This document shows, piece after piece, positions 34,371 to 51,713 of a stretch of DNA of 64,000 nucleotides (positions within the stretch are counted from its first letter, which is position 1; every line of letters starts with the position of its first letter). The stretch is from Myxococcales bacterium (lineage in GTDB: Bacteria; Myxococcota; Myxococcia; Myxococcales; Myxococcaceae): positions 1-64,000 of the forward strand of contig JACPVI010000053.1 of NCBI GenBank assembly GCA_016191815.1, given 5' to 3'. Below the pieces are notes generated by a model. It saw only the letters and a program-made list of their open reading frames with translations. It did not search any database and was not told the DNA's origin. A program made the position numbers and the translations under genes.

Positions 34371-34988
34371 TTAGAAGGTGTACTTCACCCGGGGGAAGAA
34401 CTGCAGCGAGGTGATGTTCGCGCCGACGATGTACCGCCCCATCACGTCGAAGCCGATGCTGAAGTGGTCCATCGAGGTGGCGTATTCCACGCCGAGCCCA
34501 ACGCCTGCGTTCGGTCCCCGATCGATTGCCCCGTTGGGGTCCTGGGACCCTTTGGGACGAGGCGGGTTGAACGTGGGCGCGGGCTGCATCAGCGTGTAGC
34601 CGCCCACCAACTTGGGGGTGACGTAGAAGCGCTCCGCGATCCGGAAGAGGTAGGCCGCGGTGAGGTCGATGAACATCACCGTGAAGTTGTCGGCCTCGAC
34701 GCACTCCTCCCTCTCCTTGCGGTCCCAGCAGTTCTGGGCGTTCGCGCCGATGCCGGCGTGAAGGCCCAGCTCGATCGTCTGGCTCACGTCGTAGCCGATG
34801 CCGAGCTGGAGGTAGGTCTGAAGGTTCGAGTAGCCGTCCTCGCCGCCGACGGTCATGAAGCCGCCGATGTCGGTCTCGGTGAAGAAGCCGCGGCGCACCA
34901 CGAGCGCCACGCCTTCCGGCGGGGTGGCGGCAGTGGCCGCGAACGCCGACAGAGCGGCGGCCACCGCGAGGAGCCTGCGCACGAGCAT
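34371..34988 (-). CDS. outer-membrane beta-barrel protein, GltH/NfsH-like by position
   Basis: The 205-residue product has a signal peptide (MLVRRLLAVAAALSAFAATA), alternating beta-strand sequence throughout (LQLGIGYDVSQTIELGLHAG, GVGLGVEYATSMDHFSIGFD) and a terminal aromatic residue in PRVKYTF, the signal for barrel assembly. It is the last of the three barrels in the Glt/Nfs-type cluster and sits where GltH or NfsH does in M. xanthus. Homology is judged from position and type, not from an alignment. The ATG at 34988 is chosen because the signal peptide follows. Confidence 0.75.
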   Translation of the reverse strand: MLVRRLLAVAAALSAFAATAATPPEGVALVVRRGFFTETDIGGFMTVGGEDGYSNLQTYLQLGIGYDVSQTIELGLHAGIGANAQNCWDRKEREECVEADNFTVMFIDLTAAYLFRIAERFYVTPKLVGGYTLMQPAPTFNPPRPKGSQDPNGAIDRGPNAGVGLGVEYATSMDHFSIGFDVMGRYIVGANITSLQFFPRVKYTF

Positions 34989-35064
34989 TGCTGGCACCGT
35001 CCTTGTCCTAGGAGCGTGCCAACTTACCCGTGCCCCCACACAAGCCGCAACGGAGAATCGGCGT

Positions 35065-36246
35065 TCACTCCGCGTCGCCGGCGGCCTTGAACACCCAGCG
35101 GAAGCTGACCTCCACCACGCCTCCGCCTTCGGGCTCGGGAAAGCGCCAGCGGCGAACACTCTCCAGCATGCAGGCCTCCACGTTGGCGTTGGCCAGAGAC
35201 GACTCGGCGACCTGCGCCTCGGACACCTCACCCGCCGGATCGATCACGAAGCGCACCGCCACCTTCCCCGCCAGATCGGGCAGCCTCGCCAGCTCCGACT
35301 CGTAACAGAACTTGATCTCCGATTGGTGCCGCCGGACCACGCGCGAGATGACCTCCCTCGGGAGGCCGCCGATCACCCGGGTGGGACCTCTGGGCGGGGT
35401 CTCCTCGCGCTTGCGGAGAGCGTTCGGAGCGAGGCCGCCTCCAGGGCCTCGCTCCGGGCCTCCCAGGCCAGGCAGCCTGCCGAGCCCCAGGGGTCCTCCA
35501 CCCCAGCCGGGCGTGGAGCCGCGCGCGTCGATCCCGTACAGGCCAAGCGCGTCGCTCAGCATCGGACCTCCGGTCAGGCCCTCCAGGGCGGCGTCGATCC
35601 CGCGCCCCAAGCCGGCTCCGATGACCGCATCCGCCTTGGCGCCGAGCTGGTCGAGCACTCCCAAAAGACCCAGCCGGGTCCGCTTCCTCCCCGGCCCCCC
35701 CGCGCCCCGAGGGCCTCGCTCGTCAGCCTGCCGCTCCTGCTTGCGCACGGCTGGCTGCTCGGGGAGCAGCAGGCGTGGCACCTTGAGGCGCGGAACATCT
35801 CTCAGCAGGTCGCCGAGGCTGGCGGAGGGTCCAATGGCCAGCACCGAGCCGTCGTCCTCGGCGCCCGGGGTGAGGTGAAAGGCGGCGGCGAGGGCAAGGA
35901 GCACGAGGACTCCGAAGCTGGTGAGCTTGAAGAACTGGATCTCCGCGAAATCGAGCTCCCGCCGCGAGAGGGCGCCTTCGGGCGCGGCAGGTCCCAGCTC
36001 GAACGTCAGCCCCGACCAGGCGATCGTGGCCCGGGCTCCCACCTCGAGCTCCACCGGCTCGGCGCAAGGCGCGCGGCTCTCGCCCGGGGCGGTGAGCTCG
36101 GCCCCATGAGGCAACTCGACGCGCGCGCTCCCGCTCGAGTCGGTGGTGATCGCCAATCCTTCGATTTCCACCCGCTGGCGAGCGGCGAGGTGGACCACGT
36201 CGAGGAGCTGATCGCCCCAGCGGAGCGCAACCGAAACCCTTTCCAT
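35065..36246 (-). CDS. second GltG-like protein without FHA domain (AgmX/PglI C-terminal domain)
   Basis: The 393-residue protein repeats the plan of its upstream neighbour minus the FHA domain. The N-terminus (VALRWGDQLLDVVHL) matches VALLWGDTLINVGHF of the neighbour. One membrane helix follows at about residues 105-124 (FFKLTSFGVLVLLALAAAF), then a Gly/Pro-rich periplasmic linker and a C-terminal TonB-like AgmX/PglI domain with IKFCYESELARLPDLAGKV, IDPAGEVSEAQV and MLESVRRWRFPEPEGG. The likely topology is cytoplasmic N-terminus and periplasmic C-terminus. It looks like a tandem duplicate of the GltG-like gene, 67 bases downstream of it. Confidence 0.85.
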   Translation of the reverse strand: MERVSVALRWGDQLLDVVHLAARQRVEIEGLAITTDSSGSARVELPHGAELTAPGESRAPCAEPVELEVGARATIAWSGLTFELGPAAPEGALSRRELDFAEIQFFKLTSFGVLVLLALAAAFHLTPGAEDDGSVLAIGPSASLGDLLRDVPRLKVPRLLLPEQPAVRKQERQADERGPRGAGGPGRKRTRLGLLGVLDQLGAKADAVIGAGLGRGIDAALEGLTGGPMLSDALGLYGIDARGSTPGWGGGPLGLGRLPGLGGPERGPGGGLAPNALRKREETPPRGPTRVIGGLPREVISRVVRRHQSEIKFCYESELARLPDLAGKVAVRFVIDPAGEVSEAQVAESSLANANVEACMLESVRRWRFPEPEGGGVVEVSFRWVFKAAGDAE

Positions 36247-36313
36247 CGCGTCTTCCCCCTAGAAGGTGCAGGGGGTAAGACAACCCGCACTGGATTGGGT
36301 TCTCTCGAAGCGG

Positions 36314-38203
36314 CTACTCGTCTCCCGAGTCCGCGCCCGCGGACTTGAACACCCAGGGGAAGCTGACGGTGACCACGCCTCCGCCCTGCGGTTCGGGGAA
36401 CTTCCACCGCCGGATGCGCGACAGCATGCAGTTCTCGGCGTTGGCGCTGCCCAAGGACGACTCGGAGACGTTGGCCTCGGACACCGCTCCTGCGGGGTCG
36501 ATTGTGAACACCACCGCCACCTTGCCGGCCAGGTCGGGCACCTTCTGCAGCTCCTGCTCGTAGCAGAACTTGATCTCGTTCTGGTGGCGCTTGATCACCT
36601 TGGCGATCACGTCCTTGGAGAGGCCGCCCACCACGGTGGTCTTGCCCGGCACCACGCGGGTGGTGTCCTTGCCGCGCCCGCCCAGGTCAATCGAGCCATA
36701 GCCGCCGGCGCCCCGCCCGGTGCCCTTGGTCCCCAGGCCGCCGAGCCCGAGCCCGGTGCCGCCGCCGCCCGGACCGGTGCCGCGCGAGCCGAGGCCGCCC
36801 ACGCCGTGAGCGTCGCCCAGCCCGGCGCCGCCCTGCAGCCCTCCCAGCGCGTTGTTGATCCCGGTGCCCAGGCCGCCCGGGCCGAACACGTTCGAAGCGC
36901 CGCCCGCCGCGCCGCCGAGCGCGCCGAGCAGCCCCGCCGCCATCACCTTCTTGCGGTCCTCCTCGCGCTTGTTGGCGTCGACCACCGGGCTGCCCTTCTT
37001 CGAGGGGTCCGCCTGGTCCTTCTTCGCGTCCTGCTTGCCGAACTTGCCCTCTTTCTCCTTCGCCTTGGCGCCCTCTTGCAGGCCGGAGAGATCCTTGAAC
37101 TTCTTGATCTCGATCTTCTTCTCCGGCTTGACGAGCAGCTTCACGTACTTGGAGGGGTTCTGGAAGATGTCGTCGGAGGTGCCCCACTCGCCCTGCGGAG
37201 TGAGGAGCATCGCCGCCACCATGGCGATGAAGGCCATGATGCAGATGGAGGAGATCTTGAAGAAGGTGAAGTCGGCCTCCTCCATCCGGCCGACCGCGAC
37301 CGCGGCGGAGGGCCGCACGTAGCGGATGATGAAGGCCACGTTCTCGAAGGAGACCTGGGCCCGGTCGTGCAGCCCCAGCTCGATCGAGTCGGCGCGGATC
37401 GGGCCATCCGAGCCGCGCAGCTTGCCCTCGGCGCGCAGCTGCTCCTTCGACTTGTGGCTGTCGCCGCGGGTCGACACCACCACGCCGGCGTCGTGGGGCA
37501 CGTCCACCTGCATGGTGGAGCCCTTGGACCGGACCAGGGTGAAGCTGTCGCCGATGGAGGGGGCGAAGACGTGGAAGTGGTTCCGCTTCGCCTCGCCGAT
37601 GGTGACCGGCACCCCGTCGGCGAAGTGCCCCACGTTGATCAGCGTGTCGCCCCACAACAGCGCTACCTGGAGGACCTTGCTGTCTTCGGCCGGAGTGGCC
37701 TCGGCGGGGAGCGGATCGTTGAAGAGGATCGCCGCGTTCTTCCCGGTGCCCGCCAGGGCCCGCGGGACCAGCGGCTTGGGAGCGGGCTTTATGGCGGGGG
37801 CGGCCGCCGGAGGAGGCGGGGCTAGAGGCATCGCCTTGGCCGCGATGTCGCGGGCCAGCTGATCGTTCGGCACCGCCTCGGTGGAGTCGGCGTCGCCGAA
37901 GAGCACCTTCACCTTGGAGCCGCCGAGGTGCAGAACGTCGCCGGAGGCCAGCGCCACCGGGTTGTTGATCGGCTCGTCGCCCAGCTTGGTGCCGTGCTCG
38001 CTCCCCAAGTCGATGGCGGTGACGATCCCGCTCTTCTCCACCTTGAGCATCACGTGGAGGTTGGAGACCTTCGGATCCGGGATTTTCACCGCGGCGCCCG
38101 CGCCGGAGCCGAGGATGACGCTCTCCAGCTCTGAGCGGGACTCGAGGGTCGTCCCGTCCGGGCCGGTGATGCGGAAGGTGAGCGCGTTCTTCTTCGAAGC
38201 CAT
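36314..38203 (-). CDS. FHA-TM-AgmX/TonB-like inner-membrane protein, GltG/NfsG-like
   Basis: The 629-residue protein has an N-terminal FHA domain (about residues 20-105) with KVSNLHVMLKVE and DLGSEHGTKLG, then a long domain (175-300). One transmembrane helix spans about 314-334 (FFKISSICIMAFIAMVAAML), followed by a Lys-rich stretch, a Gly-rich linker and a C-terminal AgmX/PglI domain (IKFCYEQELQKVPDLAGKV, MLSRIRRWKFPEPQGGG). This is the architecture of M. xanthus GltG and NfsG, which bridge cytoplasm and periplasm. The FHA domain could read phosphothreonine signals. It stands in the G position of the cluster. Confidence 0.88.
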   Translation of the reverse strand: MASKKNALTFRITGPDGTTLESRSELESVILGSGAGAAVKIPDPKVSNLHVMLKVEKSGIVTAIDLGSEHGTKLGDEPINNPVALASGDVLHLGGSKVKVLFGDADSTEAVPNDQLARDIAAKAMPLAPPPPAAAPAIKPAPKPLVPRALAGTGKNAAILFNDPLPAEATPAEDSKVLQVALLWGDTLINVGHFADGVPVTIGEAKRNHFHVFAPSIGDSFTLVRSKGSTMQVDVPHDAGVVVSTRGDSHKSKEQLRAEGKLRGSDGPIRADSIELGLHDRAQVSFENVAFIIRYVRPSAAVAVGRMEEADFTFFKISSICIMAFIAMVAAMLLTPQGEWGTSDDIFQNPSKYVKLLVKPEKKIEIKKFKDLSGLQEGAKAKEKEGKFGKQDAKKDQADPSKKGSPVVDANKREEDRKKVMAAGLLGALGGAAGGASNVFGPGGLGTGINNALGGLQGGAGLGDAHGVGGLGSRGTGPGGGGTGLGLGGLGTKGTGRGAGGYGSIDLGGRGKDTTRVVPGKTTVVGGLSKDVIAKVIKRHQNEIKFCYEQELQKVPDLAGKVAVVFTIDPAGAVSEANVSESSLGSANAENCMLSRIRRWKFPEPQGGGVVTVSFPWVFKSAGADSGDE

Positions 38204-38255
38204 GAGCCTGCCTCTTGTCTCCGGTAGCGAAATGCGCGGGCCGACGGCGCCCGAC

Positions 38256-38519
38256 CTACAGGTTGTCCACCGACTTCTGGAGCTCGGGCGAGAAATTCTC
38301 GCGGACCTTGATCAGGCTCTTGAAGTTGGTCTTCTTCTTCGACAGGGCGTAGGTGCCTTCGGGCTTGGTCAGCTCCCCTTCGACGGCGACGTCGGTGAAG
38401 TCGATGACGGTCTTCTTGCGGTACACCGTGCGATCCGCCTCGCGGATTACCTTCTCCTGCGCCAAGGCGGGCGCCGAGAACAGCGCCAAGAGGCCCGCCG
38501 CAAGCCACATACGCTTCAT
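38256..38519 (-). CDS. small periplasmic protein, GltF/NfsF-like by position
   Basis: The 87-residue product has a signal peptide ending at ALAQ (MKRMWLAAGLLALFSAPALAQ) and a 66-residue mature part. That part contains TVYRKKTVIDFTDVAVEGEL, a run of lysines (KKKTNFKSL) and a C-terminal helix FSPELQKSVDNL. It has AGGAGA six bases before the ATG. It lies between the GltE- and GltG-like genes, which is the F position in M. xanthus glt and nfs loci. Partner identity is inferred from position. Confidence 0.8.
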   Translation of the reverse strand: MKRMWLAAGLLALFSAPALAQEKVIREADRTVYRKKTVIDFTDVAVEGELTKPEGTYALSKKKTNFKSLIKVRENFSPELQKSVDNL

Positions 38520-38552
38520 CGAGTATCTCCTGCGCGGGTGAGACAACTGGAC

Positions 38553-38589
38553 ACCCGATCGGGTTCCTCCGGGCGGTGCATCGCCCGGA
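38553..38589. promoter_or_regulatory. palindrome and hairpin in the leader of the GltF-like gene
   Basis: A perfect 12-bp palindrome ACCCGATCGGGT (38553-38564) is followed by an 8-bp perfect stem (TCCGGGCG at 38568-38575 with CGCCCGGA at 38582-38589). They lie in the 217-base gap between the GltE- and GltF-like genes, the widest gap in this operon. There is no T-run, so a simple terminator is unlikely; an operator or an RNA processing site is possible. Confidence 0.3.
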
Positions 38590-38736
38590 CCGGCCGAAAG
38601 GCGGCGCATAGTAAGGGATTTCAGGGCCATTTGTCACGGCCCGGCCCGGCGCGGCGAACGCGATTCGCCACTGGCGGCACTCCTCTTCCAGCCTCGCCAG
38701 CGCCGCTGATGACGCCGCGCGGCAAGCGAACTGAAG

Positions 38737-40089
38737 CTACTGCTTGGCCTCAGTGGGAGCGGGCGCGGGCTCGGACTTGGGGGCCTCTCCCTGGGGCTGG
38801 GCGCCGGCTGGGGGCGGCTGAGGCTGGCCTTCGGGCGGAGGCTGCGCGCCCTCCTCCTTCGCAGCCTGATCAGCCACCTTGTCGAGCAGGGACTCGCCGC
38901 CCTTGACCTCCTTGGGCTTCTGCCGCTCCTGAGGCGGAGCGCCCTGCTGGGCGCCGGTCTTCTGCATCGCCAGGATGCCCTTCATCTTGTTGTCGACGAG
39001 TTGCTGGTCCTGGGCGCTGGTGGTGAGCAAACCCTTGCACTTCTCGAGGAGGGTGAGCGCCTTGTCCCATCCGCTGCGGTCGGCCGCGTAGGCCCAGCCC
39101 GCACCGCAGATGGCGTCGGGGTGGTCGGCGCGGATGGCGAGCACCTTCTCGAAGGCGGCGCCAGCGGCGAGGCCCTTCTTCGGATCCCGACCCTTCTGGC
39201 CGTCCAGCGCAAAGGCGAAGCCGAGATGCCCTTCATAGGAGGTTGGATCGAGGGCGACCGCCTTGCCGAAGGCCTTCTCCGCCCCCTCGTAGTCGCGGTA
39301 GGAGAGCGCCATCGCCCCGATGTTCATGTGGCCCGGGGCGAACTTGTCATTGAGGGTGACCGCCTTCTGGAACTCGCCCAGGGCCCTCCGCCGATCCTCC
39401 AGCTTGAGGTGGATCATCCCCAGGTTGTTGTGGACGCCTGGATCCTTGTCGTCGAGCTTGCGGGCGTTGCCGGAGATGAACTCGGCGAGCCGGAAATTCC
39501 CCTGGTCGTAGTAGATGAGGGCCAGGTTCTTGTAGGCGTCGGGGTTGTCCTTGGTGCGGGAGAGCACCTTCCTCACGGTGGCCTCGGCGTCCTTGAAGCG
39601 CTTGCCCAGCCGGTAGGCGACGGTGAGGTTGTTGAGCAGGGCGACGTCGTGCTCGCGCCCCGGCTGCTTGAGGGCCTGCTCGTAGAGGGAGATCGCCTTC
39701 TCGAACTTGTCCCGGAGGCGGTACACCTTGCCGAGGTTGAGCAAGGTGGGGGTGTGGTTGGGGTCGAGCTTCCGGGTGGCTTCGTAGGCGGCCTCGGCCT
39801 CGGCGAGGTTTCCCAGCCGCTCCTTCACTACGCCCAGGTTGTACTGGGCGTTCACCATCTGGGGCGCCTTCTCCAAGACTTTCTGGAAGGCCGCCTCGGC
39901 GTCCTCCAGCTTGCCCGCGTCGAAGGCCTTCACCCCTTGGGAGAACAGCTCTTCCGGAGTCCTCTCCTTGGGAGGCGGCGGTGGCGCGGCGGCGAGCGCA
40001 GGATCGGGCTTCACCACCTCCGGGGCGGTCTTGCAGGCGAACAGCGCCAGGGCGAAAAGGGCGAGGGCGGCGATGGAAAGTGACTTCAT
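38737..40089 (-). CDS. TPR lipoprotein, GltE/AglT-like
   Basis: The 450-residue protein has a lipoprotein signal with lipobox LFAC (Cys19), then a short Pro-rich spacer. About seven TPR units follow (from about residue 45 to 350), for example DAEAAFQKVLEKAPQMVNAQ, YNLGVVKERLGNLAEAEAAY and NNLGMIHLKLEDRRRALGEF. The C-terminal 80 residues are Pro/Gln/Ala-rich. This is the organisation of AglT (GltE) in M. xanthus. It probably sits at the outer-membrane inner leaflet or in the periplasm as a scaffold of the complex. It follows the GltD-like gene by 30 bases. Confidence 0.88.
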   Translation of the reverse strand: MKSLSIAALALFALALFACKTAPEVVKPDPALAAAPPPPPKERTPEELFSQGVKAFDAGKLEDAEAAFQKVLEKAPQMVNAQYNLGVVKERLGNLAEAEAAYEATRKLDPNHTPTLLNLGKVYRLRDKFEKAISLYEQALKQPGREHDVALLNNLTVAYRLGKRFKDAEATVRKVLSRTKDNPDAYKNLALIYYDQGNFRLAEFISGNARKLDDKDPGVHNNLGMIHLKLEDRRRALGEFQKAVTLNDKFAPGHMNIGAMALSYRDYEGAEKAFGKAVALDPTSYEGHLGFAFALDGQKGRDPKKGLAAGAAFEKVLAIRADHPDAICGAGWAYAADRSGWDKALTLLEKCKGLLTTSAQDQQLVDNKMKGILAMQKTGAQQGAPPQERQKPKEVKGGESLLDKVADQAAKEEGAQPPPEGQPQPPPAGAQPQGEAPKSEPAPAPTEAKQ

Positions 40090-40119
40090 GGCGGGTTCCG
40101 TTGGATAGGGAGTCGAGGC

Positions 40120-43100
40120 TCAGTGCGCGCCGGCGCCGGTGCCGGCGGGCGGCGACTTCTCGGCGAACGCCGCCTCCTTGGCGACCGATTCCTGGAAGAA
40201 GAACTCCGAGCCCCGGAAGGGCACCTCGCGCACCTTGCCGTAGGTTCCGGGCCGGTACTTGTTCAGCTTGTCCTGGGCCTGGAGGGTCCACTCGTTGTAG
40301 ATGGCCAGCTCGTAGCTCTTGGCGAGCGCCTTCTCGAGCGCCTCGATCGACTTCTCCTCCAGCGGGAAGGCCTTCTCCTCCAGGGCCCCGCGGTACATCT
40401 CGAGCTGCTCCTCGTCGAGCCCTTTGGGGTTGGGGGAGTCGATGAAGTTCTGCGCGAAGTCGGCGTAGGCCGTGCCGATGCGGGTGAGCGCGGCGATGCC
40501 CCACTCCCCTGCCCCGATGGCGAGCACCTCGGTGTAGGCCTTCTCGACCTCCTGGATCTTCTTCAGCTTCGCCTCGAGGTCCTTCTTGAGGGTGGCCACC
40601 TTGCCGAACTTGATTTCCAGGTACTGCTTCCACATCGGCTCCAGCGAGAGGAAGCGGGCGTGGCCGAAGCCGTTCATCGGCCCGTCCTTCTTCTTGTCCT
40701 CGGCGGAGAGCTTCGCGTAAGCAGCGATCAGCTCCTTCATCAGCTTCTCCGATTCCGCCTGGTTCTTGAGCGCCCGGTGCGCCTTGAACTGGCGGTACCT
40801 CGCCTCGTAGAGGCTCACCGCAGTGACGCGGGAGTCCTTGCCGTAGGTGGTCAGGTAGGCCTCGTAGCCCTTGATCGCCTCGGGCAACTTCTTGTCCTTC
40901 TCCTGGATGTCGCCGAGGTGGAAGGCGATCGCCGGGACATCCTTGCGCTCCTTGAATCGGGCCATGTACCGATGGTAGGCGGAGATGGCCTTTTCAGACT
41001 TGCCCAGGCCCTCCCACCACAGGGCGGCGTTGAACTGGGCGTCGGCGACCCAGCAGTCGTCGGGCTTGGCGCAGGCCTCCTTGATGAGGTCCTCCCGCTC
41101 CTTGGGGTCGACCTTCTTCGTCTCGGCGGCCTTGCCCGCCTTCGCCTTTTGGGCGACCGCCTTGGCGGGCTTGCCCTTGGCCTCCTTGGCCTCCTTCTTC
41201 AACAGCTCCTTCATGTTCTCGTAGCCCACGGCCTTGGGCCCGGCGGCTTGGTCGTAGGCGGCGATGAAGGCCTCGTACATCTCGGCTGACCTGGTGAAGT
41301 CGGCGAGCTTCTCGTAGAAGCGGGCCAGCGAGTAGCGGGCCTTCAGCTCGAACACCGAGCCCGGGTACTCCTTGAGCACGCGCTCCCCGGCCTCCACGCC
41401 GCGGTCGAGCTGATCCGCCTCCCGGAAGATCAGCATCGCGTGGGTGAGCGCGCGGTCGGCGTTGTCCGACTTGGGGAACTCGGCGACGAACTTCTGGAAC
41501 TCCTCGGCGGCCCGGGCCGGGTTCTTCTCCTTCTTGTAGATGACCTCGTCGACCCACTTGTACTGGGAGTTCTCGACGATGGTGCCCACCCGCTTGGTGA
41601 ACTCGGTGCCCGGCTTGGAGAGCTTCTTGTTGGCGAGGAACTGGCGGGAGAGCTTGTTGATCTCCAGCCACTCTTCCTTCTCCTCGAGGACGGACATCGA
41701 GATGTCGGCCGCGTCCTGCGAGCGCTTCTCCTCCGGCCACTTGAGGATGACTTCTCCGAGCCGCTTGGCGGCCTCCACGAAGTGGTTGCGGTCGTAGTAC
41801 ACGACCGCGGCCATGTAGCGGACCTCGATCTCGTCCTGGTTGTTCGGGTACAGCTCGTTGTACTTGTCGCAGGCCTCGGCGAGCTTCTGCTCGAACTTGG
41901 AGATCGGCTGCTCCACGAGATCCTTGGGCGAACGCTTCTCGATCTTCTTCTGCTTCTCCACCACCCCCTTCTTCTTGGTCTCCTCGACCTTCTGCCCGGC
42001 CTTGATGTCGGCCTTGGCGAGGAGCCCGCGCTCGATCTTCACCAGCTTGTCGTAGGTGAGGATGGCGTTGTACGCCGCCGACTGCCGGTACTTCTCCTGG
42101 GTGACTTCCTTGGCGGTGTCGCGGTTGGGGACCTTGAAGGCCACCACGCTCTGGTACTCGCGGGCGGCGTGCTCCCACTCCTCGAGGGCCCAGAGGATCT
42201 CCGCGTAGTAGAACTTCATGTTGAAGGCGGAGTCGGAGACGAACTGCTCCTCCTCGCTGGTGGCGAAGGCGTCGACGTACTCCTTGTAGATGTCGCGGGC
42301 GAGCCGGTAGGTCTCGACCTGCTTGGTCTTCTGCGCCTCCTGGTGGTAGTCGGTGACCACCTTCCGCATCGCCTCTTCGGAGACGTTGAAGGCGTCGCGC
42401 AAAACCTCCTTCTTGCTCTCGTTGGCCTTCCACCATTCGCTGCCCGGCCGGTAGAGGGTGGCGAGCTTCTTCACCTCGGCCTTGACCATCTCGCGCTGGC
42501 GCAGGCCCTCGTAGCTGTTGATCACGGCCTGCTGGAACTCGGGCGCCTTGGGCTGCATGGGGTTCTCGCCCAAGAGGTACTGGTAGGTCTTGATGGCGTT
42601 GTCGTGGTGGCCGGCCTCGGCGAGCCCGTCGGCGAGCCTGGCGATCAGGCGGGCCTGGGCCTTCTTCCCGGCGTGGGCCTTGTAGTAGGCGACGGCGTCC
42701 TGGGCCCGGTTGAGCTGGACCCACATCCGGATCATGTCGTTCAGCGCCTCGTTCTTGAGGTCGGTGAACTGCTTCTTCTCCGACTGCCGCTCGGTGTAGT
42801 CGACCACGTCCTGGAGCTTCTTGAGGGCGCGCTCGTGCTCGCCGGCGTTGAAGTCGCACCAGGCCAGCTTGTAGAGGGCGTAGCTCTTGATCCTCGGCTG
42901 GTTGGAGCCGAAGGCGCGCTCGAACATGTCCTTGGCCTTGGGGAGGTTTCCGGCCACGTCGAAGTAGTGGTTGCCGAGCTGGACGTAGGTGTCGGCGATG
43001 AACTTCGAGCCAGGGTAGTTCTTGATCAGCTCCTCGTAGCGCTTGACGGCCTGCTCGCGCTTGTTGGTCTCGTAGAGGTTGTAGCCGAGCGAGAAGAGCA

Positions 43101-43653
43101 CCTCGTCCTTGCGCTCATAGGCGGGGGCCTCGCGGAGGATCTGCTCGTAGAGGGTCATCGCCTGGGCGCGGTAGGACTCGCTCTCGCGGTGGTCCTCCTT
43201 GGCGTCGGCAATCTTCTCGCCGCGGTTTCTGGCGGCGTCGACCTTCTTCTCCTCCTCCTGGAAGCGGAACATCTCCCTGCGGTAGAGGTACTTGGACTTC
43301 TCCCAGTACAGCTCGGCGAGCTGGAACCACAGCTCGGCCTTCTCGTTGGAGCCGTCCTGGAACCTGGGGATGATCTTCCTCAGGCTCTCGATGGTCTCGT
43401 CGCGCTTCTTGTCGGCGATCGCCTCCCGCTCGGCGTCTTCCAGCTTGTACTCCTGCTTGAGCTGGAAGGAGCCCTTTCGCTCCTCTTCCTTCTTCTTCTT
43501 CTTGGGTTCCTCGGGCTTGGCGGCGGTGGGGGCGGGTTTGCTCTCGACCTTGGGGGCGGCCTTCTTCCCCTTCTTCTGGGCAAGGGAGGTGGCCGGCGCG
43601 CCGGCGAGGGCGGCGGCGAGCGCGAAGGTGAAGACCCGATGAAGCGACTTCAT
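40120..43653 (-). CDS. large periplasmic TPR protein, GltD/AgmU-like
   Basis: The 1177-residue product has a signal peptide (MKSLHRVFTFALAAALAG) and a Lys/Glu-rich segment (residues about 28-62). Long arrays of TPR-like helical repeats follow (for example ELWFQLAELYWEKSKYLYRR and YEELIKNYPGSKFIADTYVQ), interrupted by a lysine-rich linker near residues 830-860. The C-terminus contains KYRPGTYGKVREVPFRGSEF. Length and layout match AgmU (GltD) of M. xanthus, a periplasmic scaffold. It is the largest gene of the cluster. The ATG at 43653 directly precedes the signal peptide. Confidence 0.88.
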   Translation of the reverse strand: MKSLHRVFTFALAAALAGAPATSLAQKKGKKAAPKVESKPAPTAAKPEEPKKKKKEEERKGSFQLKQEYKLEDAEREAIADKKRDETIESLRKIIPRFQDGSNEKAELWFQLAELYWEKSKYLYRREMFRFQEEEKKVDAARNRGEKIADAKEDHRESESYRAQAMTLYEQILREAPAYERKDEVLFSLGYNLYETNKREQAVKRYEELIKNYPGSKFIADTYVQLGNHYFDVAGNLPKAKDMFERAFGSNQPRIKSYALYKLAWCDFNAGEHERALKKLQDVVDYTERQSEKKQFTDLKNEALNDMIRMWVQLNRAQDAVAYYKAHAGKKAQARLIARLADGLAEAGHHDNAIKTYQYLLGENPMQPKAPEFQQAVINSYEGLRQREMVKAEVKKLATLYRPGSEWWKANESKKEVLRDAFNVSEEAMRKVVTDYHQEAQKTKQVETYRLARDIYKEYVDAFATSEEEQFVSDSAFNMKFYYAEILWALEEWEHAAREYQSVVAFKVPNRDTAKEVTQEKYRQSAAYNAILTYDKLVKIERGLLAKADIKAGQKVEETKKKGVVEKQKKIEKRSPKDLVEQPISKFEQKLAEACDKYNELYPNNQDEIEVRYMAAVVYYDRNHFVEAAKRLGEVILKWPEEKRSQDAADISMSVLEEKEEWLEINKLSRQFLANKKLSKPGTEFTKRVGTIVENSQYKWVDEVIYKKEKNPARAAEEFQKFVAEFPKSDNADRALTHAMLIFREADQLDRGVEAGERVLKEYPGSVFELKARYSLARFYEKLADFTRSAEMYEAFIAAYDQAAGPKAVGYENMKELLKKEAKEAKGKPAKAVAQKAKAGKAAETKKVDPKEREDLIKEACAKPDDCWVADAQFNAALWWEGLGKSEKAISAYHRYMARFKERKDVPAIAFHLGDIQEKDKKLPEAIKGYEAYLTTYGKDSRVTAVSLYEARYRQFKAHRALKNQAESEKLMKELIAAYAKLSAEDKKKDGPMNGFGHARFLSLEPMWKQYLEIKFGKVATLKKDLEAKLKKIQEVEKAYTEVLAIGAGEWGIAALTRIGTAYADFAQNFIDSPNPKGLDEEQLEMYRGALEEKAFPLEEKSIEALEKALAKSYELAIYNEWTLQAQDKLNKYRPGTYGKVREVPFRGSEFFFQESVAKEAAFAEKSPPAGTGAGAH

Positions 43654-43744
43654 GCTGGCTCCTGCGTTCGGATGCTCGGGAGGAGAAAGTCGGCGAAAGC
43701 TACACTCCCGCCGGGTTTTTTGAAAAGGCCCGGCCCGGCCGGGG

Positions 43745-44065
43745 TCAGGAGCGAGGCGACTGGGCCTGTTCGATGCAGAGCATCGCGTGGCCCTCGCCGG
43801 ACTCGGTGACGAGGTCGAGGCAGCCGCGGGACACCCGCTGGATCCGCAGGCGATCCCGGGAGATGAAATCTCCTTGCCGGACGATGATCACCTGGCCTCG
43901 AGGATCCTCCACGGCGGCGGAGGGCGTCCGCCCGCGGAGTGGCTGGACGTGCACGAGGGTGAGCGACGAGAGCGGCGCCTTGTCGAAGTGATGCGCCACA
44001 GGCTCTGCCGCGGCAGGCCAGGCAACCAGCCCAAGAAGGACCCACCACCGGACCGCGCTTTTCAC
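43745..44065 (-). CDS. small periplasmic protein with a PilP/GspC-like domain
   Basis: The 106-residue product has a signal peptide (MKSAVRWWVLLGLVAWPAAA) and a mature part of about 86 residues. The segment RGQVIIVRQGDFISRDRLRI followed by QRVSRGCLDLVTE resembles the beta-rich domain of PilP and GspC, where a glycine-aspartate turn (V.. .GD.I) precedes two short strands. PilP and GspC link inner- and outer-membrane parts of type IV pilus and type II secretion machines. Its GTG start overlaps the GltC-like stop (GTGA); an ATG at 44074 is the alternative. I do not recall this gene in M. xanthus glt or nfs loci. Confidence 0.7.
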   Translation of the reverse strand: MKSAVRWWVLLGLVAWPAAAEPVAHHFDKAPLSSLTLVHVQPLRGRTPSAAVEDPRGQVIIVRQGDFISRDRLRIQRVSRGCLDLVTESGEGHAMLCIEQAQSPRS

Positions 44066-45555
44066 TCCGCACATCCTCTCTTCAAGGTGTACTGGTAATA
44101 GCCGATCTCGTCGATCCAGAACTCGCCCTGGAACTTCCAGTAGTTCCAGTCCTCCGCCGGCATCTTGGGCCGGTAGAGCGACTTCTCGGTGAGCATCTTC
44201 CGCTGGTTGACCCCGGCCTCGGCCATCTCCTTCTCGGCCTTGGAGGTCTCGAACCGGACGATCTCCGCCTGGTTCTGGAAGTGGCTTATCGCCTCGTTCG
44301 CCTCGGTGAGCCGGTTCTTGGCCAGCTTGCCCGCCACCTTCACCAGCACCGCCCGGTTCTGATCCAGAAGGCTGACCAGGTCCGGCCCGAGCTTCGAGCC
44401 GCGCCACGCCTGGTTGGCGGTGATCGCCGCCTTCTCCTTGTCGATCTGGTTCAGCATCGCGAACAGCCCGAGCATGCGCTCGTTGCTCCTCACCCAGTTG
44501 AGCACCGGCTTGGGGATCTTCTCCGAGCTGTCGTTGACCAGCTTGAAGAAGAACTCCTCGTCCTTGCCATCGGCGGTGACCAGCGGCGTCAGCTTCTCGC
44601 GCATCGGCACGTAGATCTCGTCGAACGCCGCCAGCGCGGTCTTGGCCTCCTCGTAGAGGCAGCTGAAGTAGTAGGTGATGCTCTTGAGGTACCAGGACTC
44701 GGGCTGGAAGGCCCCGGCGAACTGGGGCGCGTGGAGCGCCTGCAGGGAGCCGAGCGCCCCGCCGAGATCGTCGTTCTGGTAGCGGGCCCAGCCGTCCTCG
44801 AACAGGGCGACGTCCCAGAACTTGGTGAAGCGGGGGATGCGCTCGTAGGCCTCCACCGCCCGCTGGTACTGGCCCATCCCGTAGTGGACGCGGCCGAGCC
44901 CGAGCAGCGAGAGGTGCTGGGTGGCGAGCAAGTCTTCCTGCTTTTCGGTCTTGAGCGCCAGCACGCGCTCGAACGCCTTGATCGCCTGCTCGTACTTGGG
45001 GCCGCCGGGGAAGCGCGGATCCGAGAGCACCACCCCGAGCAGGTATTGCGCCTTGGCGTAGATCGCGGTTTCTCTGGGCACCGCCTCGAGGAAGGCCTGG
45101 GCCTCGTCGAACTTCGCCTTGCGCTGGTCGATCTGTCCGATGAGGTAGTTGATGCGCGCCAAGACCTCGAGCGGGAGGGTGGCCCACTCGTCGGAGTACC
45201 TCTTCTCCAGTTGGTTTGGGATGAGGTACTGGTCATCGAGCTGCTGCTGGACGTTGACCAGCCCCTCCACCGCCTTGAGGTAGAAGGGGTGGGCCTTCCC
45301 CGCCCGCAGGATGGACTGGTAGTGGATGAAGGCGGTGACCGGCAGCTCCTTCTTCGCGAAGGACTGCGCCAGGTAATACTCCGACTTGGTGCGCAGGTCC
45401 GCGTCGGTGGAGGTCTCGTTCACCTCGAAGAAGGCCTGGGCGGCGGCGTCGTAGTCGCCCGAGTTGAAGGCGGACAGGGCGCGGTTGTACAGCGCGAGGT
45501 CCTGGGCCCAGGCGGCCGAGGGCAACAGCGAGGCGAGGAGGAGGATTCGCTTCAT
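44062..45555 (-). CDS. periplasmic TPR protein, GltC/NfsC-like
   Basis: The 497-residue product has a signal peptide (MKRILLLASLLPSAAWAQ). TPR-like repeats follow across residues 20-330 (NRALSAFNSGDYDAAAQAFF, HYQSILRAGKAHPFYLKAVE and RVHYGMGQYQRAVEAYERIP). A coiled-coil region (KNRLTEANEAISHFQNQAEI) and an aromatic-rich C-terminus (DWNYWKFQGEFWIDEIGYYQ) complete it. This matches the GltC position and type, directly behind the two barrels. It follows the second barrel gene by 5 bases and overlaps the next gene. Confidence 0.85.
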   Translation of the reverse strand: MKRILLLASLLPSAAWAQDLALYNRALSAFNSGDYDAAAQAFFEVNETSTDADLRTKSEYYLAQSFAKKELPVTAFIHYQSILRAGKAHPFYLKAVEGLVNVQQQLDDQYLIPNQLEKRYSDEWATLPLEVLARINYLIGQIDQRKAKFDEAQAFLEAVPRETAIYAKAQYLLGVVLSDPRFPGGPKYEQAIKAFERVLALKTEKQEDLLATQHLSLLGLGRVHYGMGQYQRAVEAYERIPRFTKFWDVALFEDGWARYQNDDLGGALGSLQALHAPQFAGAFQPESWYLKSITYYFSCLYEEAKTALAAFDEIYVPMREKLTPLVTADGKDEEFFFKLVNDSSEKIPKPVLNWVRSNERMLGLFAMLNQIDKEKAAITANQAWRGSKLGPDLVSLLDQNRAVLVKVAGKLAKNRLTEANEAISHFQNQAEIVRFETSKAEKEMAEAGVNQRKMLTEKSLYRPKMPAEDWNYWKFQGEFWIDEIGYYQYTLKRGCAE

Positions 45556-45560
45556 GGCGG

Positions 45561-46646
45561 TCAGAAGAGCAAGGACACCCCGGCGTAGAAGCCGAGGTTG
45601 TTGAGCACGTCCGACGACGGGGTGGATACCAGGTTCTTCGCCAGCGGGATGTCCATGGTGTGCTTGTAGCCGTCGTCCCTCACCTTCGCGAAGACCTTCT
45701 TCCCGAGCGCCACGCACGAGGGGCTGACGTTCACTCCGTCCAGGCTGCTGCCGTTGCGGATCGCCTTGTCCATGGCGTCGAGGTCTCCGAAGTCGCAGCC
45801 GTTCACCGCGTCGAACTTCGCGGTGTAGACGAGGTCGCGGATCTCGGCGCGGAAGGCGAACCGCTCGCCGAACTGCAGCCGCACGCCTGCGCCCAACGAG
45901 CCCAAAAACTTGTTCCCAGTCTCTCCGAAGGTCGCCGCGCCGGTGCCCCCTTCTGACGTCGGGTCGCCGGCCGGCTTGAGCTGGTGCCGGGTGGCGCCGA
46001 TGCCCGCGCCGCCGTTCACCACCACCGAGAAGTGCGCCAGGCTGTCCTCGTACCAGGCGAACTTGCCGTAGAGCGGAGTCACCTCCACCCCGCCCTGGAC
46101 TCCCCACACCAACAGGAGCGAGGTGGCCGCCTGGAACTCGCGCCGCGCCTTCTCGATCAGCTCCTGGTTGAAGGCCGACTCGGTGGTGACCCAGTGGTAA
46201 TGCCCCGAGACCTGGAACCCGAAGTTCTCGTGCAGGTGCCACACCGCGGTGGCCGCGGTGCCGATGTGCTGGGTCGCCTTCCCGTTCGCTTGAATCGTGA
46301 GCGGGTAGAGGGCCACCTCCCGCTTGCCGTTGTCAGAGAAGATCTTCTTCTCCACGATGTGGACCGCGACGTTCGGGTTGAACAGCGGGGCCCCGGAGAC
46401 CAGGCGCTGCTGCCCGGCGGGGGCCTGCGGCGCGGCCGGAACGGCGGCGGGCGCGGGCTTCTCCTCGGGCTTGGCAACCTTGTCGCCTGGCTTGGGCGGC
46501 GGCTGATCCTTGGGCTTCAAAGGCGCCTCCTCTTCTTCCTCCTCCTCGTCGTCGGTCTGGCCGAGCACCAGGTCCAACAGGCGAGGCGCAGAGAGGGCCT
46601 GGGCCGCAGAGGCGCAGAGCAGGGCGAGGAACAGAAGCAGTCTCAT
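45561..46646 (-). CDS. outer-membrane beta-barrel protein, GltB/NfsB-like
   Basis: The 361-residue protein has a signal peptide (MRLLLFLALLCASAAQA). An acidic run (DDEEEEEEEA) and a Pro/Lys/Ala linker to about residue 80 follow. A beta-barrel of amphipathic strands comes next (HIGTAATAVWHLHENFGFQV, FSVVVNGGAGIGATRHQL and GSLGAGVRLQFGERFAFRAE) and ends with a terminal Phe in GFYAGVSLLF. It is one of two adjacent barrels in the A/B position of the Glt/Nfs complex. In M. xanthus these form the outer-membrane part of the machine. Confidence 0.82.
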   Translation of the reverse strand: MRLLLFLALLCASAAQALSAPRLLDLVLGQTDDEEEEEEEAPLKPKDQPPPKPGDKVAKPEEKPAPAAVPAAPQAPAGQQRLVSGAPLFNPNVAVHIVEKKIFSDNGKREVALYPLTIQANGKATQHIGTAATAVWHLHENFGFQVSGHYHWVTTESAFNQELIEKARREFQAATSLLLVWGVQGGVEVTPLYGKFAWYEDSLAHFSVVVNGGAGIGATRHQLKPAGDPTSEGGTGAATFGETGNKFLGSLGAGVRLQFGERFAFRAEIRDLVYTAKFDAVNGCDFGDLDAMDKAIRNGSSLDGVNVSPSCVALGKKVFAKVRDDGYKHTMDIPLAKNLVSTPSSDVLNNLGFYAGVSLLF

Positions 46647-46655
46647 CGTCGCACC

Positions 46656-47465
46656 TTAAAAGAGGAACGAGTAGCCGATGTCGATCATCACGAGGTTGGT
46701 GAGGCCGCTCCGCACCGCAGTGCCCCCGCCGTCGGGAGGGCTCCGGTTGAGCGCCTTGGCGTAGTCCACGTCGGCGAGCCACTCGTCGCGGTAGGAATAG
46801 TCCCGTAGCTCGATGGCGATGGAGTGGCTGGGTGTGAGGAAGAAGCGCGTGCCCAGCGCGACGCTCGCCATCCCGTCGAACTTGTCCTGGGTGTAGAACT
46901 CGGCGCAGGAGCTGCCCGACTTCTGGTTGCAGATCATCACCGACTCGCGATGGAGCTGGACCGCGCCCCCTCCCAGCCAGAGGTAGGCCTGGAAGTGCAG
47001 CGGCAGCTCGGCCATCAGCGAGATCTTCCCGTAGATCGGCGCCCAGCGGACTCCCACGGCGGCGTTCCCGTGCATCTCCCACAGATCCGAGAGATCGCTC
47101 ACCGTTCCTGGGCTGGAGGCTCCGATCTTCTCCGCCGCCAGCTCCTCGGCGATCTGGCCCGCCAGGTTGGTGTGGTGGGACAGGGTCGGCCACCGGCTCG
47201 CCGGCCCCAACGCATAACCTCCGCGGACCTCCAAGGCCAGCGTGTCCGAGAGGTTGTAGGCGAAGTGGCCGTTGAAGTTGACGTGGTCGGTCAGCCGCGA
47301 CATCGGCATGAAGCCGACGTTGAGGCCGAGCTCCAGCCGCCCCTTCAGGGTGTAGAGGCGGTTTCGAACCACCACCTTCTCGATCAGCTCTTCCTGGTTT
47401 TCGGCGGCCGCGGCGGGTGCGGCGGCGAGGCAGAGGGCTGCCAACAGCAGGGTCGCTCTCGTCAT
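46656..47465 (-). CDS. outer-membrane beta-barrel protein, GltA/NfsA-like
   Basis: The 269-residue protein has a signal peptide (MTRATLLLAALCLAAAPAAA), a short helical segment and a beta-barrel (LELGLNVGFMPMSRLTDHVN, FNGHFAYNLSDTLALEVRGG and SVALGTRFFLTPSHSIAIEL) ending in IDIGYSFLF with terminal Phe. It shares its general plan with the next gene. It lies 8 bases behind the VWA lipoprotein gene. Which of the two barrels is A or B is set by order only. Confidence 0.82.
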   Translation of the reverse strand: MTRATLLLAALCLAAAPAAAAENQEELIEKVVVRNRLYTLKGRLELGLNVGFMPMSRLTDHVNFNGHFAYNLSDTLALEVRGGYALGPASRWPTLSHHTNLAGQIAEELAAEKIGASSPGTVSDLSDLWEMHGNAAVGVRWAPIYGKISLMAELPLHFQAYLWLGGGAVQLHRESVMICNQKSGSSCAEFYTQDKFDGMASVALGTRFFLTPSHSIAIELRDYSYRDEWLADVDYAKALNRSPPDGGGTAVRSGLTNLVMIDIGYSFLF

Positions 47466-47473
47466 GGCTCTCT

Positions 47474-48937
47474 TCACGGACAACTCGTCTGGAATTCGGC
47501 CTGCACGTCGTAGCAGATTTCTACGGCGCTCAGGGATTCGGGGACCGCGGCTCCGTCGAACCGCACCACATTTCGGAAGGCCGAAGCGTCGCACTTCACG
47601 TACTGGGCCGCGTCCTTGGTTGCCGCCAGGTCGACGTCCAGCTTCCTGGCACAGCGGTTGGAGCGGCAGAACTGTCCTGCGGGGCAATTGCCGTCCACCT
47701 GGCAGTTGGCGGCGTTGGGGGGCGAGACGTAGAGCTGGATCCCGGCGGCCTTCCCGCCCGAGGGCTGAACGTCGGGCCCGCGGGTGAGCCGGAATTCCCG
47801 GCGAAGGCCCGAGGCCGCGTACCCCAGCGAGGCGAGCGCGCCCGAAAAGCTGCTGTCGCAGATGGACACCGCCACTCCGCCGGTGTCCGAGGCGACCTTC
47901 ACGTAGCGCCCGCCGAAGTAGGCGATCTCGTAGCCGCCGTCGTTCTGCCCCCCGGTCGGGCACGGCAAAGCGGAGGCCGAGCGGCAGCAGCCGGCATGCT
48001 GGTTGGGGTCTCCGAACTGGGAGGGGACTCCGGCGTCGGCGGTGCCTTCGAGCGCCACGATCGCCGCCAGCGCCACCAGCTCGCCCTGGCCGTAGCCCTT
48101 GTACGTCTCGAGGAAGCGGGTGAAGTAGGAGGTGCTGCCGTAGGCCCCGGCGCCCCCGAGGATGGCGTCGGGCGCGCACCGGCAGCCTGGGTCGGCGGTG
48201 CAGATGGACTGGGTCACCAGCGGATGGCAGGAGGAGTCGTCCTCGTCGGAGACGACCACCACGTAGAGCGCCGCCTCCGGGCGGATGAAGCGCTCGGCTC
48301 CCGGCTTGGAGAGGTTGTTGGGGTTGGTGAGGGCGAGGTAGGCCGCGAGCAGACCACGCTCCTGGGCGCTCCCCGCAGTGCCCACGGTGGCCATCTGCTG
48401 GAAGGCGGTCACCGCCTCGGAGGTGCCGCCGTCGGCGCCCTGGTTGGTGTTGCAGCGCGAGGTGCCGTCGGGCTGCGGGGTGCAGGCGATGAAGTCGGAG
48501 GTGGTGGGGCCGACGATCCACTTCCTGAGCGCCCCGCGGGTGGCCGGGTCGTCGGTGTCGGTGGGGGTGACCGCGATGTGGAAGTCGATCGGGGGCTTGG
48601 CGTTGACGAGCTGGCTGATGAAGCCGTTGAAGTTCGCCGCCAGCCGGGCCTGCTTGGGCGCCATCGAGCCCGAGGAGTCCACCACCCAGAGGATGTCCAC
48701 CTTCCTCACCGAGAGCTGCTGGTAGAGGTCGCACTGCCTGGGGACGTTGATGGAGAAGCTGGAGGTCTCCCGGGTCGGGTCGGTGAGGACCTTGGGCGCG
48801 CCGGTGTCGACTTGAGGGGTGCCGGGGACCACCGCGTAGGGCTCGAGGACTTTCCGGGTGCGGCCGCCGCGCTCTTCGCAGCCGATCGCGACGAGCGTCG
48901 CGCCCGCCAGCAACGCAGCCCTCGGCAGCCGAGACAT
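47474..48937 (-). CDS. VWA-domain lipoprotein, CglB-like adhesin candidate
   Basis: The 487-residue protein has a lipoprotein signal with Cys20 (LVAIGC). A VWA domain starts near residue 79, with a complete MIDAS start DxSxS at Asp87-Ser89-Ser91 (WVVDSSGSM) and an acidic SDEDDSSCH motif later in the domain. It is cysteine-rich, including DPGCRCAP, HAGCCRS and NCPAGQFCRSNRCAR near the C-terminus, so several disulphides are likely. M. xanthus CglB is an outer-membrane VWA lipoprotein that acts as the gliding adhesin with the GltA/B/H barrels. This gene opens the Glt/Nfs-type operon, which supports a similar role. Orthology to CglB is inferred. Confidence 0.85.
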   Translation of the reverse strand: MSRLPRAALLAGATLVAIGCEERGGRTRKVLEPYAVVPGTPQVDTGAPKVLTDPTRETSSFSINVPRQCDLYQQLSVRKVDILWVVDSSGSMAPKQARLAANFNGFISQLVNAKPPIDFHIAVTPTDTDDPATRGALRKWIVGPTTSDFIACTPQPDGTSRCNTNQGADGGTSEAVTAFQQMATVGTAGSAQERGLLAAYLALTNPNNLSKPGAERFIRPEAALYVVVVSDEDDSSCHPLVTQSICTADPGCRCAPDAILGGAGAYGSTSYFTRFLETYKGYGQGELVALAAIVALEGTADAGVPSQFGDPNQHAGCCRSASALPCPTGGQNDGGYEIAYFGGRYVKVASDTGGVAVSICDSSFSGALASLGYAASGLRREFRLTRGPDVQPSGGKAAGIQLYVSPPNAANCQVDGNCPAGQFCRSNRCARKLDVDLAATKDAAQYVKCDASAFRNVVRFDGAAVPESLSAVEICYDVQAEFQTSCP

Positions 48938-49927: not shown

Positions 49928-51664
49928 TCACTGCACCGACGGCGGCAGGCAGGCCTGCACCGGCTGCCCGTCGATCGCGAGCACCTGGGTGCAGCTCCAG
50001 CCCTCGGGGCACTCGGTGACGTCCGCGCAGTGAGCAGAGCAGACCGGCCCCGAATCCTTGCGGATGCACAGGCCGCTCTCACAGGCAGCCGGGCCGAAGC
50101 TGCAGTCCGCCCCCGCCTTCCCTCCGCCTTCGGGGAAGCACACCTCCCTCTGCTGGGTTCCGGCGTCGGCCGAGCCCAACAGCTCCGCCTTGCGGCAGGT
50201 GAAGCCGGCCGGGCAGGACAGCCCCGAGCCGCAGGGAAGCGTGCACACCCGGGCGGTGCCCAGATCCAGGCAGGTGCCGGTCTGGCACGGGGGCCTCCCG
50301 GGGCTGCAGTCGTCGCCGAAGAGCCCGCCGAGAGGCGCGCAGACTCCGGTGCCGCTCTTGGGCCCAGAGGTAGACCGTTTCTCCGCCGAGCAGTCGTAGC
50401 CGTTCGCGGTGTACTCGCAGCAGAGGTAGCGCGTGTCGCCGCAGTCCACGTCCTGCTTGCACGGCACCGAGCACAGGGAGGTGGTGCCCGCGACCAGGCA
50501 GATGCCCGCCACACAGTCCTGGGCGCCCCCCGCCGAGCAGTCGTCGCCCAGCCGGCCCAAGCCGGAGCGGCAGGTGCCGCGCTGGGGCACGCAGAAGCTC
50601 CGCGTGCCGCCGGAGGGCTCCGCCACCGCGATGCAGGCGAACCCGGGGCCGAAGGTCGCGGCGCAGGCGGCGTCGTCCGCGCACGGAGTGGAGCAGAACG
50701 CCTCTCCCCTGAAGCTGCAGCTCGCGCAGTTGTTGACGATGCACCGGTTCTCGGGGTGCGTGCCGCGCCGGCAGTCGTCGTTGTCCAGGCAGGGCGAGCA
50801 CATGCGGCCGTCCGTGGCCGCCCGGCAGCTCTTGCTGACCAGATCGCACTCCTGGCCCAGGCCGCACTGGCGGATCTGCCCCAGCTCATCGGCGCTGTCG
50901 CAGTAGGCCTTGCAGGTGTTGGAGTTGGGCACGCACTGGAAGGGGCCGCCGATGTCCACGCAGGAGAAGCCCTCAGGGCAACTGGCATTCTGCGGATCGC
51001 AGTCGCGGCCGCAGAACGTCTCTTGGGAGACCACGTTTCGGACGCAGAGATCCATCGGCCCGCCGCACTCGGAGTCGCCTTCGCAGCTCGTGCAGATCGG
51101 CTTGCCCAAGTTGCAGCTCATGCTCCTGGGGACGCACTGCTTGATCAGGGCCCGGTCCTTGCCGGCGGGAATGTCCTTGCACTCGAACCCCAAGGGGCAG
51201 CCGCCGGAGGCGCCGCAGGGGCCGGTGCAGAACTGTTCGCCGCTGCCGAGGGCGGTGAAGCAGGCGCCGCCCTGGGGGCACTGGAGCACGTCCTGGCAGG
51301 GAGAGCAGAGAGTGCGCGAGACCTTGATGTAGCAGTTGCGGGTGTCTGGGTTGCAGGCGTGGCCCGCGGGGCAGTCGGTGTCGAGCTTGCAGCCGGTCAG
51401 CTTGCGGCAGACCTTTCCGTAGCGGCCGGCGGCCTGGCAGAGGAAGTCGGTGGGGCAGCCCGAGTCGTCGGTGCACGAGAGGGTGCAGAAGCCGGAGGCG
51501 GCGTCCAGGGCGACGCAGACTCCGTCGGCGCACTCGGTGGAGCTCTCGCCTGGAGGCGCCGGGGTGCAGGGCTCGCCGGTGCCGAGCAGAGGGGTCCGCG
51601 TCGGGCCGCAGGACAACAGGAGCGCGAGGGCCACTGCCAACCGCCATAGGTGCGCTCGAGTCAC
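49928..51664 (-). CDS. large cysteine-rich lipoprotein
   Basis: The 578-residue protein has a lipoprotein signal (VALALLLSCGP, Cys19). It contains dozens of cysteines in repeated small modules of the type C..D..C..G..C (for example CTDDSGCPTDFLC, CKLDTDCPAGHACNPDTRNC and CSAHCADVTECPEGWSC). Such modules are common in myxobacterial secreted proteins and are presumably disulphide-bonded surface domains. No catalytic domain is visible. The start is taken as GTG at 51664; a GTG at 51682 lies inside a REP-like element. It could be an adhesin-like surface protein, but nothing proves that. Confidence 0.82.
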   Translation of the reverse strand: MTRAHLWRLAVALALLLSCGPTRTPLLGTGEPCTPAPPGESSTECADGVCVALDAASGFCTLSCTDDSGCPTDFLCQAAGRYGKVCRKLTGCKLDTDCPAGHACNPDTRNCYIKVSRTLCSPCQDVLQCPQGGACFTALGSGEQFCTGPCGASGGCPLGFECKDIPAGKDRALIKQCVPRSMSCNLGKPICTSCEGDSECGGPMDLCVRNVVSQETFCGRDCDPQNASCPEGFSCVDIGGPFQCVPNSNTCKAYCDSADELGQIRQCGLGQECDLVSKSCRAATDGRMCSPCLDNDDCRRGTHPENRCIVNNCASCSFRGEAFCSTPCADDAACAATFGPGFACIAVAEPSGGTRSFCVPQRGTCRSGLGRLGDDCSAGGAQDCVAGICLVAGTTSLCSVPCKQDVDCGDTRYLCCEYTANGYDCSAEKRSTSGPKSGTGVCAPLGGLFGDDCSPGRPPCQTGTCLDLGTARVCTLPCGSGLSCPAGFTCRKAELLGSADAGTQQREVCFPEGGGKAGADCSFGPAACESGLCIRKDSGPVCSAHCADVTECPEGWSCTQVLAIDGQPVQACLPPSVQ

Positions 51665-51674
51665 GGGACGCTCG

Positions 51675-51713
51675 CCCCTCACCCAAACCCTCTCCCATCC
51701 CGGGAGGGGGATT
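51675..51713. repeat. REP-like palindrome, copy 4
   Basis: The element contains CCCCTCACCC, ACCCTCTCCC and CGGGAGGGGG. It fills the gap between the rplC stop at 51720 and the start of the Cys-rich lipoprotein gene, both on the minus strand, and could separate their transcripts. Confidence 0.7.

Follow-up and report, generated by a model that had tools for sequence, protein, structure and literature searches.

A 64,000-nt window of a Myxococcales bacterium genome (positions 1 to 64,000 of contig JACPVI010000053.1, assembly GCA_016191815.1) carries on its minus strand a gene cluster for a trans-envelope machine, which gene order and protein identities (38-67% per protein) identify as the syntenic orthologue of Myxococcus xanthus nfsA-H. 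Glt and Nfs are well-known paralogues, the one specialised for gliding and the other for sporulation; the cluster belongs to the Nfs-type branch of these AglRQS-powered machines and probably represents an older, adhesin-bearing form, later specialised for the Exo polymer. It is a well-supported variant of a known machine and not a new kind of system.

Eleven genes follow each other from 48937 to 34371: first that of the VWA lipoprotein, then A, B, C, X, D, E, F, G, G2 and finally H. A first-pass annotation of the window had proposed this order, and both the gene calls and the NCBIfam matches agree with it. Spacing is operon-like: the gaps between the VWA, A, B and C genes are 8, 9 and 5 bp, and X overlaps the end of C by 13 bp; GC content by codon position backs the called frames, and the start of H was placed near 34988. 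That annotation regarded the segment as complete, with at least three extra genes woven in; the eleven genes and the three extras (VWA, X and G2) are real, but the unit extends further upstream, to the gene of a Cys-rich lipoprotein that groups with the VWA gene and had been overlooked.

Profile searches revealed strong similarity to Glt/Nfs components, as anticipated: C, E, F, G, G2 and H match Glt-type parts, while the OMP_myx_plus family (TIGR04565) matches barrels A and B, so that all eight paralogous parts A-H are found in one cluster, in Nfs order. The scores, however, stay under the Glt equivalog cut-offs (GltC 238 of 450 bits, GltE 108 of 225, GltG 319 of 650, CglF 68 of 90), and only GltH (CglE) passes, with 185 bits against 70. 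The assignment to Nfs follows from the rplC neighbour, the shared gene order and the NfsD tree (a quick search with Shimodaira-Hasegawa-like approximate likelihood ratio support), in which the window D falls on the Nfs side, as a sister lineage of an M. xanthus locus whose open reading frames have nfsA-H lengths. Specifically, the window lies inside a clade of 19 rows (clade I, 100%), sister to the clade of M. xanthus (clade II, 96%; joint fork 100%), and a branch with 100% support puts the GltD rows of the same family on the outgroup side. The M. xanthus AM003 locus (L185) reads rplC and then A-H with no added genes; its reading frames can take exactly the sizes published for NfsA, C, D, F and H (294, 512, 1202, 94 and 200; PMC2875238), and those of G and B differ by 2-3 aa from the published sizes. 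Nearly all Myxococcaceae have an orthologue of the NfsD type, at 52-71% identity. The same tree places a Myxococcus nfs locus from a record titled Comamonas sp. KCTC 72670 (L177) beside M. xanthus; this record is probably mislabelled or contaminated.

Compared with M. xanthus Nfs (MXAN_3371-3378; PMC2875238, PMC3858216), the window shares A-H content, order, strand and the rplC neighbour, and even some intergenic distances (E-F 217 versus 207 bp, F-G 52 versus 55 bp); unlike it, the window has the Cys-rich and VWA genes at the head, X, of predicted PilP fold, between C and D, and the FHA-less G2 between G and H. With the Glt gliding machine (gltA-K, aglRQS; PMC3169522, PMC4488436) it has in common the paralogous parts A-H and a VWA outer-membrane lipoprotein proposed to ride on barrels, as CglB does. 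It differs from Glt in its D protein, split from GltD at 100% support, in the missed cut-offs, in the absence of I and J from the cluster, and in having its predicted adhesin, which is not a CglB orthologue, encoded in the same operon.

The VWA lipoprotein is predicted, from motif and model together, to adopt a VWA/integrin I-like fold with a MIDAS. The DxSxS motif (D87, S89 and S91, alignment A3) and the lipobox Cys20 are invariant; in the AlphaFold2 model (mean predicted local distance difference test score, pLDDT, 70; most of the core 77-90), a MIDAS domain would be inserted in a split beta domain, and residues 61-486 resemble integrin beta headpieces (Z 14.8, root-mean-square deviation 5.6, 266 residues). 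A sequence search for solved structures matching the protein returned none. The protein was also considered as a CglB orthologue and rejected (blastp E 0.25; 15 aligned columns in hhalign; CglB orthologues are encoded on another contig, C75). Its Cys-rich partner matched no Pfam family; orthologues of the latter have 58-67% identity in clade I and 43-52% in other families.

The pair separates rplC from A not only in clade I but also in four further families (f2, f7, f9 and f10). In clade I it is retained in 15 genomes of uncultured Myxococcaceae, with the VWA gene 11-36 bp from A as compared with 8 bp in the window; in the sister genome G107, the Cys-rich gene is seen only as a piece at the contig end. 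Cultured fruiting bacteria of the genera Myxococcus, Corallococcus, Archangium, Pyxidicoccus and Citreicoccus have A directly after rplC, and genome-wide searches of nine clade II genomes found no orthologue of either protein. The VWA tree branches in the order of the NfsD tree (98/98 for clade I plus L189/L222), and this agreement argues for vertical descent of the VWA gene. Gene order and trees thus indicate that the pair was inherited and then lost in the ancestor of the cultured fruiting Myxococcaceae. In one further genome, G147 (locus L214), a clade I-type NfsD (68%) occurs with rplC directly before A, and the genome lacks both the pair and ExoC.

Two-hybrid and genetic experiments in M. 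xanthus established that AglR binds to NfsG and that Nfs is powered by AglRQS (PMC3858216); CglB co-purifies with outer-membrane components of Glt and becomes unmasked where the cell adheres (PMC12288465; on CglB see also PMC13104615). Given the homology to these two systems, the simplest inference has the VWA lipoprotein riding on A, B and H under the power of AglRQS. This proton-driven motor of the inner membrane, whose genes lie on another contig, would pull NfsG, the expected motor contact, and perhaps also the FHA-less G2, whose AgmX/TonB-like tails would extend into the periplasmic space. The force would be relayed across the envelope by D, E, C, F and X to the outer-membrane barrels, which would carry the VWA/MIDAS lipoprotein and the Cys-rich partner on the cell surface, similarly to CglB on the Glt barrels. 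The machine may thereby move a surface adhesin, or the ligand to which it adheres, along the cell. When the ancestor of the cultured fruiting Myxococcaceae lost the pair, the machine would have been left winding the Exo spore-coat polymer; the window organism may use two loads, adhesin and Exo.

The distribution of Exo bears on this proposal. M. xanthus Nfs winds the Exo spore-coat polymer with AglRQS power (PMC3858216; PMC12288465), and an exo-like locus (L235) is found in a Myxococcus genome at the distance from nfs that was expected. Of the clade II genomes, the nine that were tested for both traits all have an ExoC orthologue, and so do the window genome (64%) and G107 (53%), but none was found in 13 other pair-bearing clade I genomes, several of which are 97-100% complete; most clade I genomes have Exo-like matches of the generic Wza/Wzc-like kind only. 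With these 13 genomes lacking ExoC, most pair-bearing lineages keep the whole Nfs core without the substrate known for it.

Several points weigh against the adhesin-bearing reading. The window genome itself has exo genes, so that ordinary spore-coat winding is possible; the contrast between the pair and Exo rests on very few independent changes in the tree and is no statistical proof, with G147, which lacks both, as an exception. The VWA protein shows no detectable full-length homology to CglB, given the short hhalign alignment, and has many paralogues in the window genome (17 matches). In the deeper outgroups f11 and f19, rplC directly precedes A, which makes the pair ancestral to a class-level clade and not to all Nfs/Glt systems.

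The cluster could be an ordinary sporulation Nfs that winds Exo polymer, with the role of the VWA and Cys-rich lipoproteins confined to gripping the polymer or the coat. The ExoC orthologues of the window genome and of G107 are in keeping with this explanation, as is the intact state of every Nfs core part in the window; it is nonetheless doubtful, because the cluster and the pair persist in the 13 relatives that lack ExoC and the clade known for Exo winding lacks the pair, which is therefore unnecessary for winding.

The best family match of the VWA protein, the Bdellovibrio MIDAS adhesin model NF052240 (E 4e-14), brings in another explanation, namely a second surface-motility or predation-adhesion system in which the VWA protein would act like Bd0875 and the Nfs core would present or retract it. 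Bd0875 is needed for prey invasion and has its MIDAS domain inserted in a split beta domain (PMC11003981); the window protein shares the lipobox and, in its predicted model, this split architecture. Such a role is unlikely: 52.5 bits, compared with an equivalog cut-off of 700, indicate a distant relative and a different protein, and the window gene is linked to an Nfs operon, whereas the Bd0875 paper reports no link to Nfs.

A chance presence of the VWA and Cys-rich genes between rplC and nfsA, as unrelated neighbours, would fit the abundance of VWA lipoprotein genes in the window genome and the toxin-antitoxin pair that is inserted at the same spot. The position and strand shared in five families, the 8-36 bp between VWA and A in clade I, and the joint absence of both genes in clade II and G147 make coincidence very unlikely.

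The first-pass annotation had noted that gltI, gltJ and the AglRQS motor were missing and had suggested an ancestral or alternative machine; within the window they are indeed absent, but they are encoded elsewhere in the genome (G000; 6.77 Mb, 98.8% complete). Contig C77 carries GltJ (640 bits, cut-off 450), GltG (984, cut-off 650) and GltE (572, cut-off 225), and beside them, in the position of GltI, a GltI-like TPR protein of 4096 aa; GltC (935 bits, cut-off 450) is on C67. On C25, an AglR orthologue with 82% identity to the locus at the AglRQS position of a Myxococcus genome (G121) is followed by two ExbD-like genes, and a second motor set is found on C75; the AglRQS, CglB and Exo loci of G121 were assigned by relative chromosome position, size and motif, and not by accession. 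The C25 set (L052) is preferred as AglRQS because of its 82% match to the G121 locus at 8.16 Mb. The C75 set (L053) was rejected, its G121 counterpart lying at 3.54 Mb, the expected place of M2 (MXAN_3003-5). C75 also bears two tandem CglB orthologues (46% and 42%; positions 203762-206331), and two more Glt-like clusters are located on C17 and C11. The gliding parts missing from the window are thus merely unlinked, and a primitive or alternative gliding machine replacing Glt in a genome devoid of AglRQS, GltI and GltJ, conceivable from the window, in which none of these genes lies, is refuted as stated and hardly tenable, since the cluster is an nfs orthologue with a full Glt/AglRQS/CglB set elsewhere in the genome.

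Some features of these other loci recall the window. In the glt cluster on C77, too, there is a second GltG without FHA domain (486 aa, 372 bits; L039:2819-4279), and several clade I genomes likewise have more than one copy of the CglB orthologue. In the C25:84403-91692 region (L240:9404-16693), about 7 kb from the AglRQS genes, a second VWA lipoprotein with 31% identity to that of the window (E 2e-31) is accompanied by PKD/HYDIN, 43-Cys and TIG-repeat proteins.

X and G2, on present gene distributions, are to be regarded as lineage-specific additions; of the suggested ancestral character only the VWA gene, with its Cys-rich partner, can be considered old. The small gene had been described as PilP-like, and the fold prediction holds, at moderate strength: the X model (pLDDT 70.5, built from two sequences) matches PilP in Foldseek (3jc8_Pa, 3.8e-5; 2y4y_B, 2.5e-4) and also structures of the GspC homology region (HR), which points to a PilP/GspC HR fold, while Pfam PilP against the X sequence was not significant (E 0.16) and, unlike PilP and GspC systems, the window cluster has no secretin. 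The reading frame had to be corrected: a 140-aa frame at 43650-44072 was rejected for its wrong frame and a GC content at third codon positions of 0.55, the real gene being the one in Table 1. An orthologue occurs only in the locus of the sister genome (L149, 38%), so X, seen in two genomes, was rejected as a general Nfs part; in M. xanthus the C-D gap contains no convincing reading frame (PMC2875238). One clade I genome, the same that bears L150, has a 677-aa gene in a C-D gap of 2.25 kb (L091:11572-13605). G2 lacks the FHA domain, and its AgmX tail is 69% identical to that of the window G. At the G-H position it is seen only in the window, as the G-H gaps of other Myxococcaceae loci (up to 216 bp) leave no room for it and the G107 contig ends short of G-H; in L151 an FHA-less second G lies between E and F.

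Table 1. Genes of the nfs-type cluster and its rplC neighbour, listed in the direction of transcription.
Feature	Coordinates	Strand	Evidence
rplC (ribosomal protein L3), synteny anchor, outside the machine	51720..52406	-	TIGR03625, 264 bits
Cys-rich lipoprotein, 584 aa, 75 Cys; between rplC and nfsA	49928..51682	-	lipobox-like LLLSC
VWA/MIDAS lipoprotein, 487 aa, predicted surface adhesin	47474..48937	-	DxSxS, lipobox, NF052240, AlphaFold2 model
nfsA-like outer-membrane beta-barrel, 269 aa	46656..47465	-	TIGR04565, E 2e-33; 38% to M. xanthus nfs locus
nfsB-like outer-membrane beta-barrel, 361 aa	45561..46646	-	TIGR04565, E 6.5e-16; 52% to M. xanthus locus
nfsC-like periplasmic TPR protein, 497 aa	44062..45555	-	NF033756 GltC, E 2e-70; 56% to M. 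xanthus locus
X, small secreted protein of predicted PilP/GspC HR fold, 109 aa	43745..44074	-	Foldseek; orthologue in L149
nfsD-like large TPR protein, 1177 aa	40120..43653	-	53% to M. xanthus NfsD locus; D tree
nfsE-like TPR lipoprotein, 450 aa	38737..40089	-	NF033758 GltE, E 6e-31; 50% to M. xanthus locus
nfsF-like small periplasmic protein, 87 aa	38256..38519	-	NF033764 CglF/GltF, E 5e-19; 67% to M. xanthus locus
nfsG-like FHA-TM-AgmX tail protein, 629 aa	36314..38203	-	FHA, E 4e-11; NF033760 GltG, E 5e-95; NF033768 tail; 54% to M. xanthus locus
G2, FHA-less second G-like protein, 393 aa	35065..36246	-	NF033760, E 3e-43 over GltG 419-650
nfsH-like outer-membrane beta-barrel, 205 aa	34371..34988	-	NF033755 CglE/GltH, 185 bits; 55% to M. 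xanthus locus

As regards the surroundings, rplC adjoins the cluster in most loci whose contig extends far enough, and this association holds for most loci of the phylum. It is the sole L3 match per genome in the four genomes tested, hence L3 seems to be encoded at the nfs-linked rplC and nowhere else, the S10 operon not having been inspected. Between the Cys-rich and VWA genes, which in relatives are at most about 170 bp apart, the window has an insertion on the plus strand, consisting of a MazE/AbrB-like antitoxin (49124-49429) and a PIN-domain toxin (49407-49862). At the other end, 46 bp past H, lies the gene of a PilZ-domain Ser/Thr kinase (32657-34324), whose position is not conserved in the relatives examined. 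An Rfam search of 32-53.5 kb gave no match.

Which of the Glt and Nfs processes is the more recent is not clear, according to Luciano et al. 2011 (PMC3169522). The finding that the predicted adhesin of the Nfs operon is kept in mostly Exo-less lineages and lost where Exo winding is known yields a sequence of events open to direct testing, and the two parts missing from the fruiting clade, VWA and Cys-rich, may determine the load of the machine. Tentatively, Nfs may have started out as a surface-transport machine that carried an adhesin, a second "focal adhesion" with an integrin-like foot of its own, and would have become a spore-coat winder in the fruiting Myxococcaceae upon loss of the foot; the uncultured relatives, most of them without spore-coat polymer genes, would then keep the original form.

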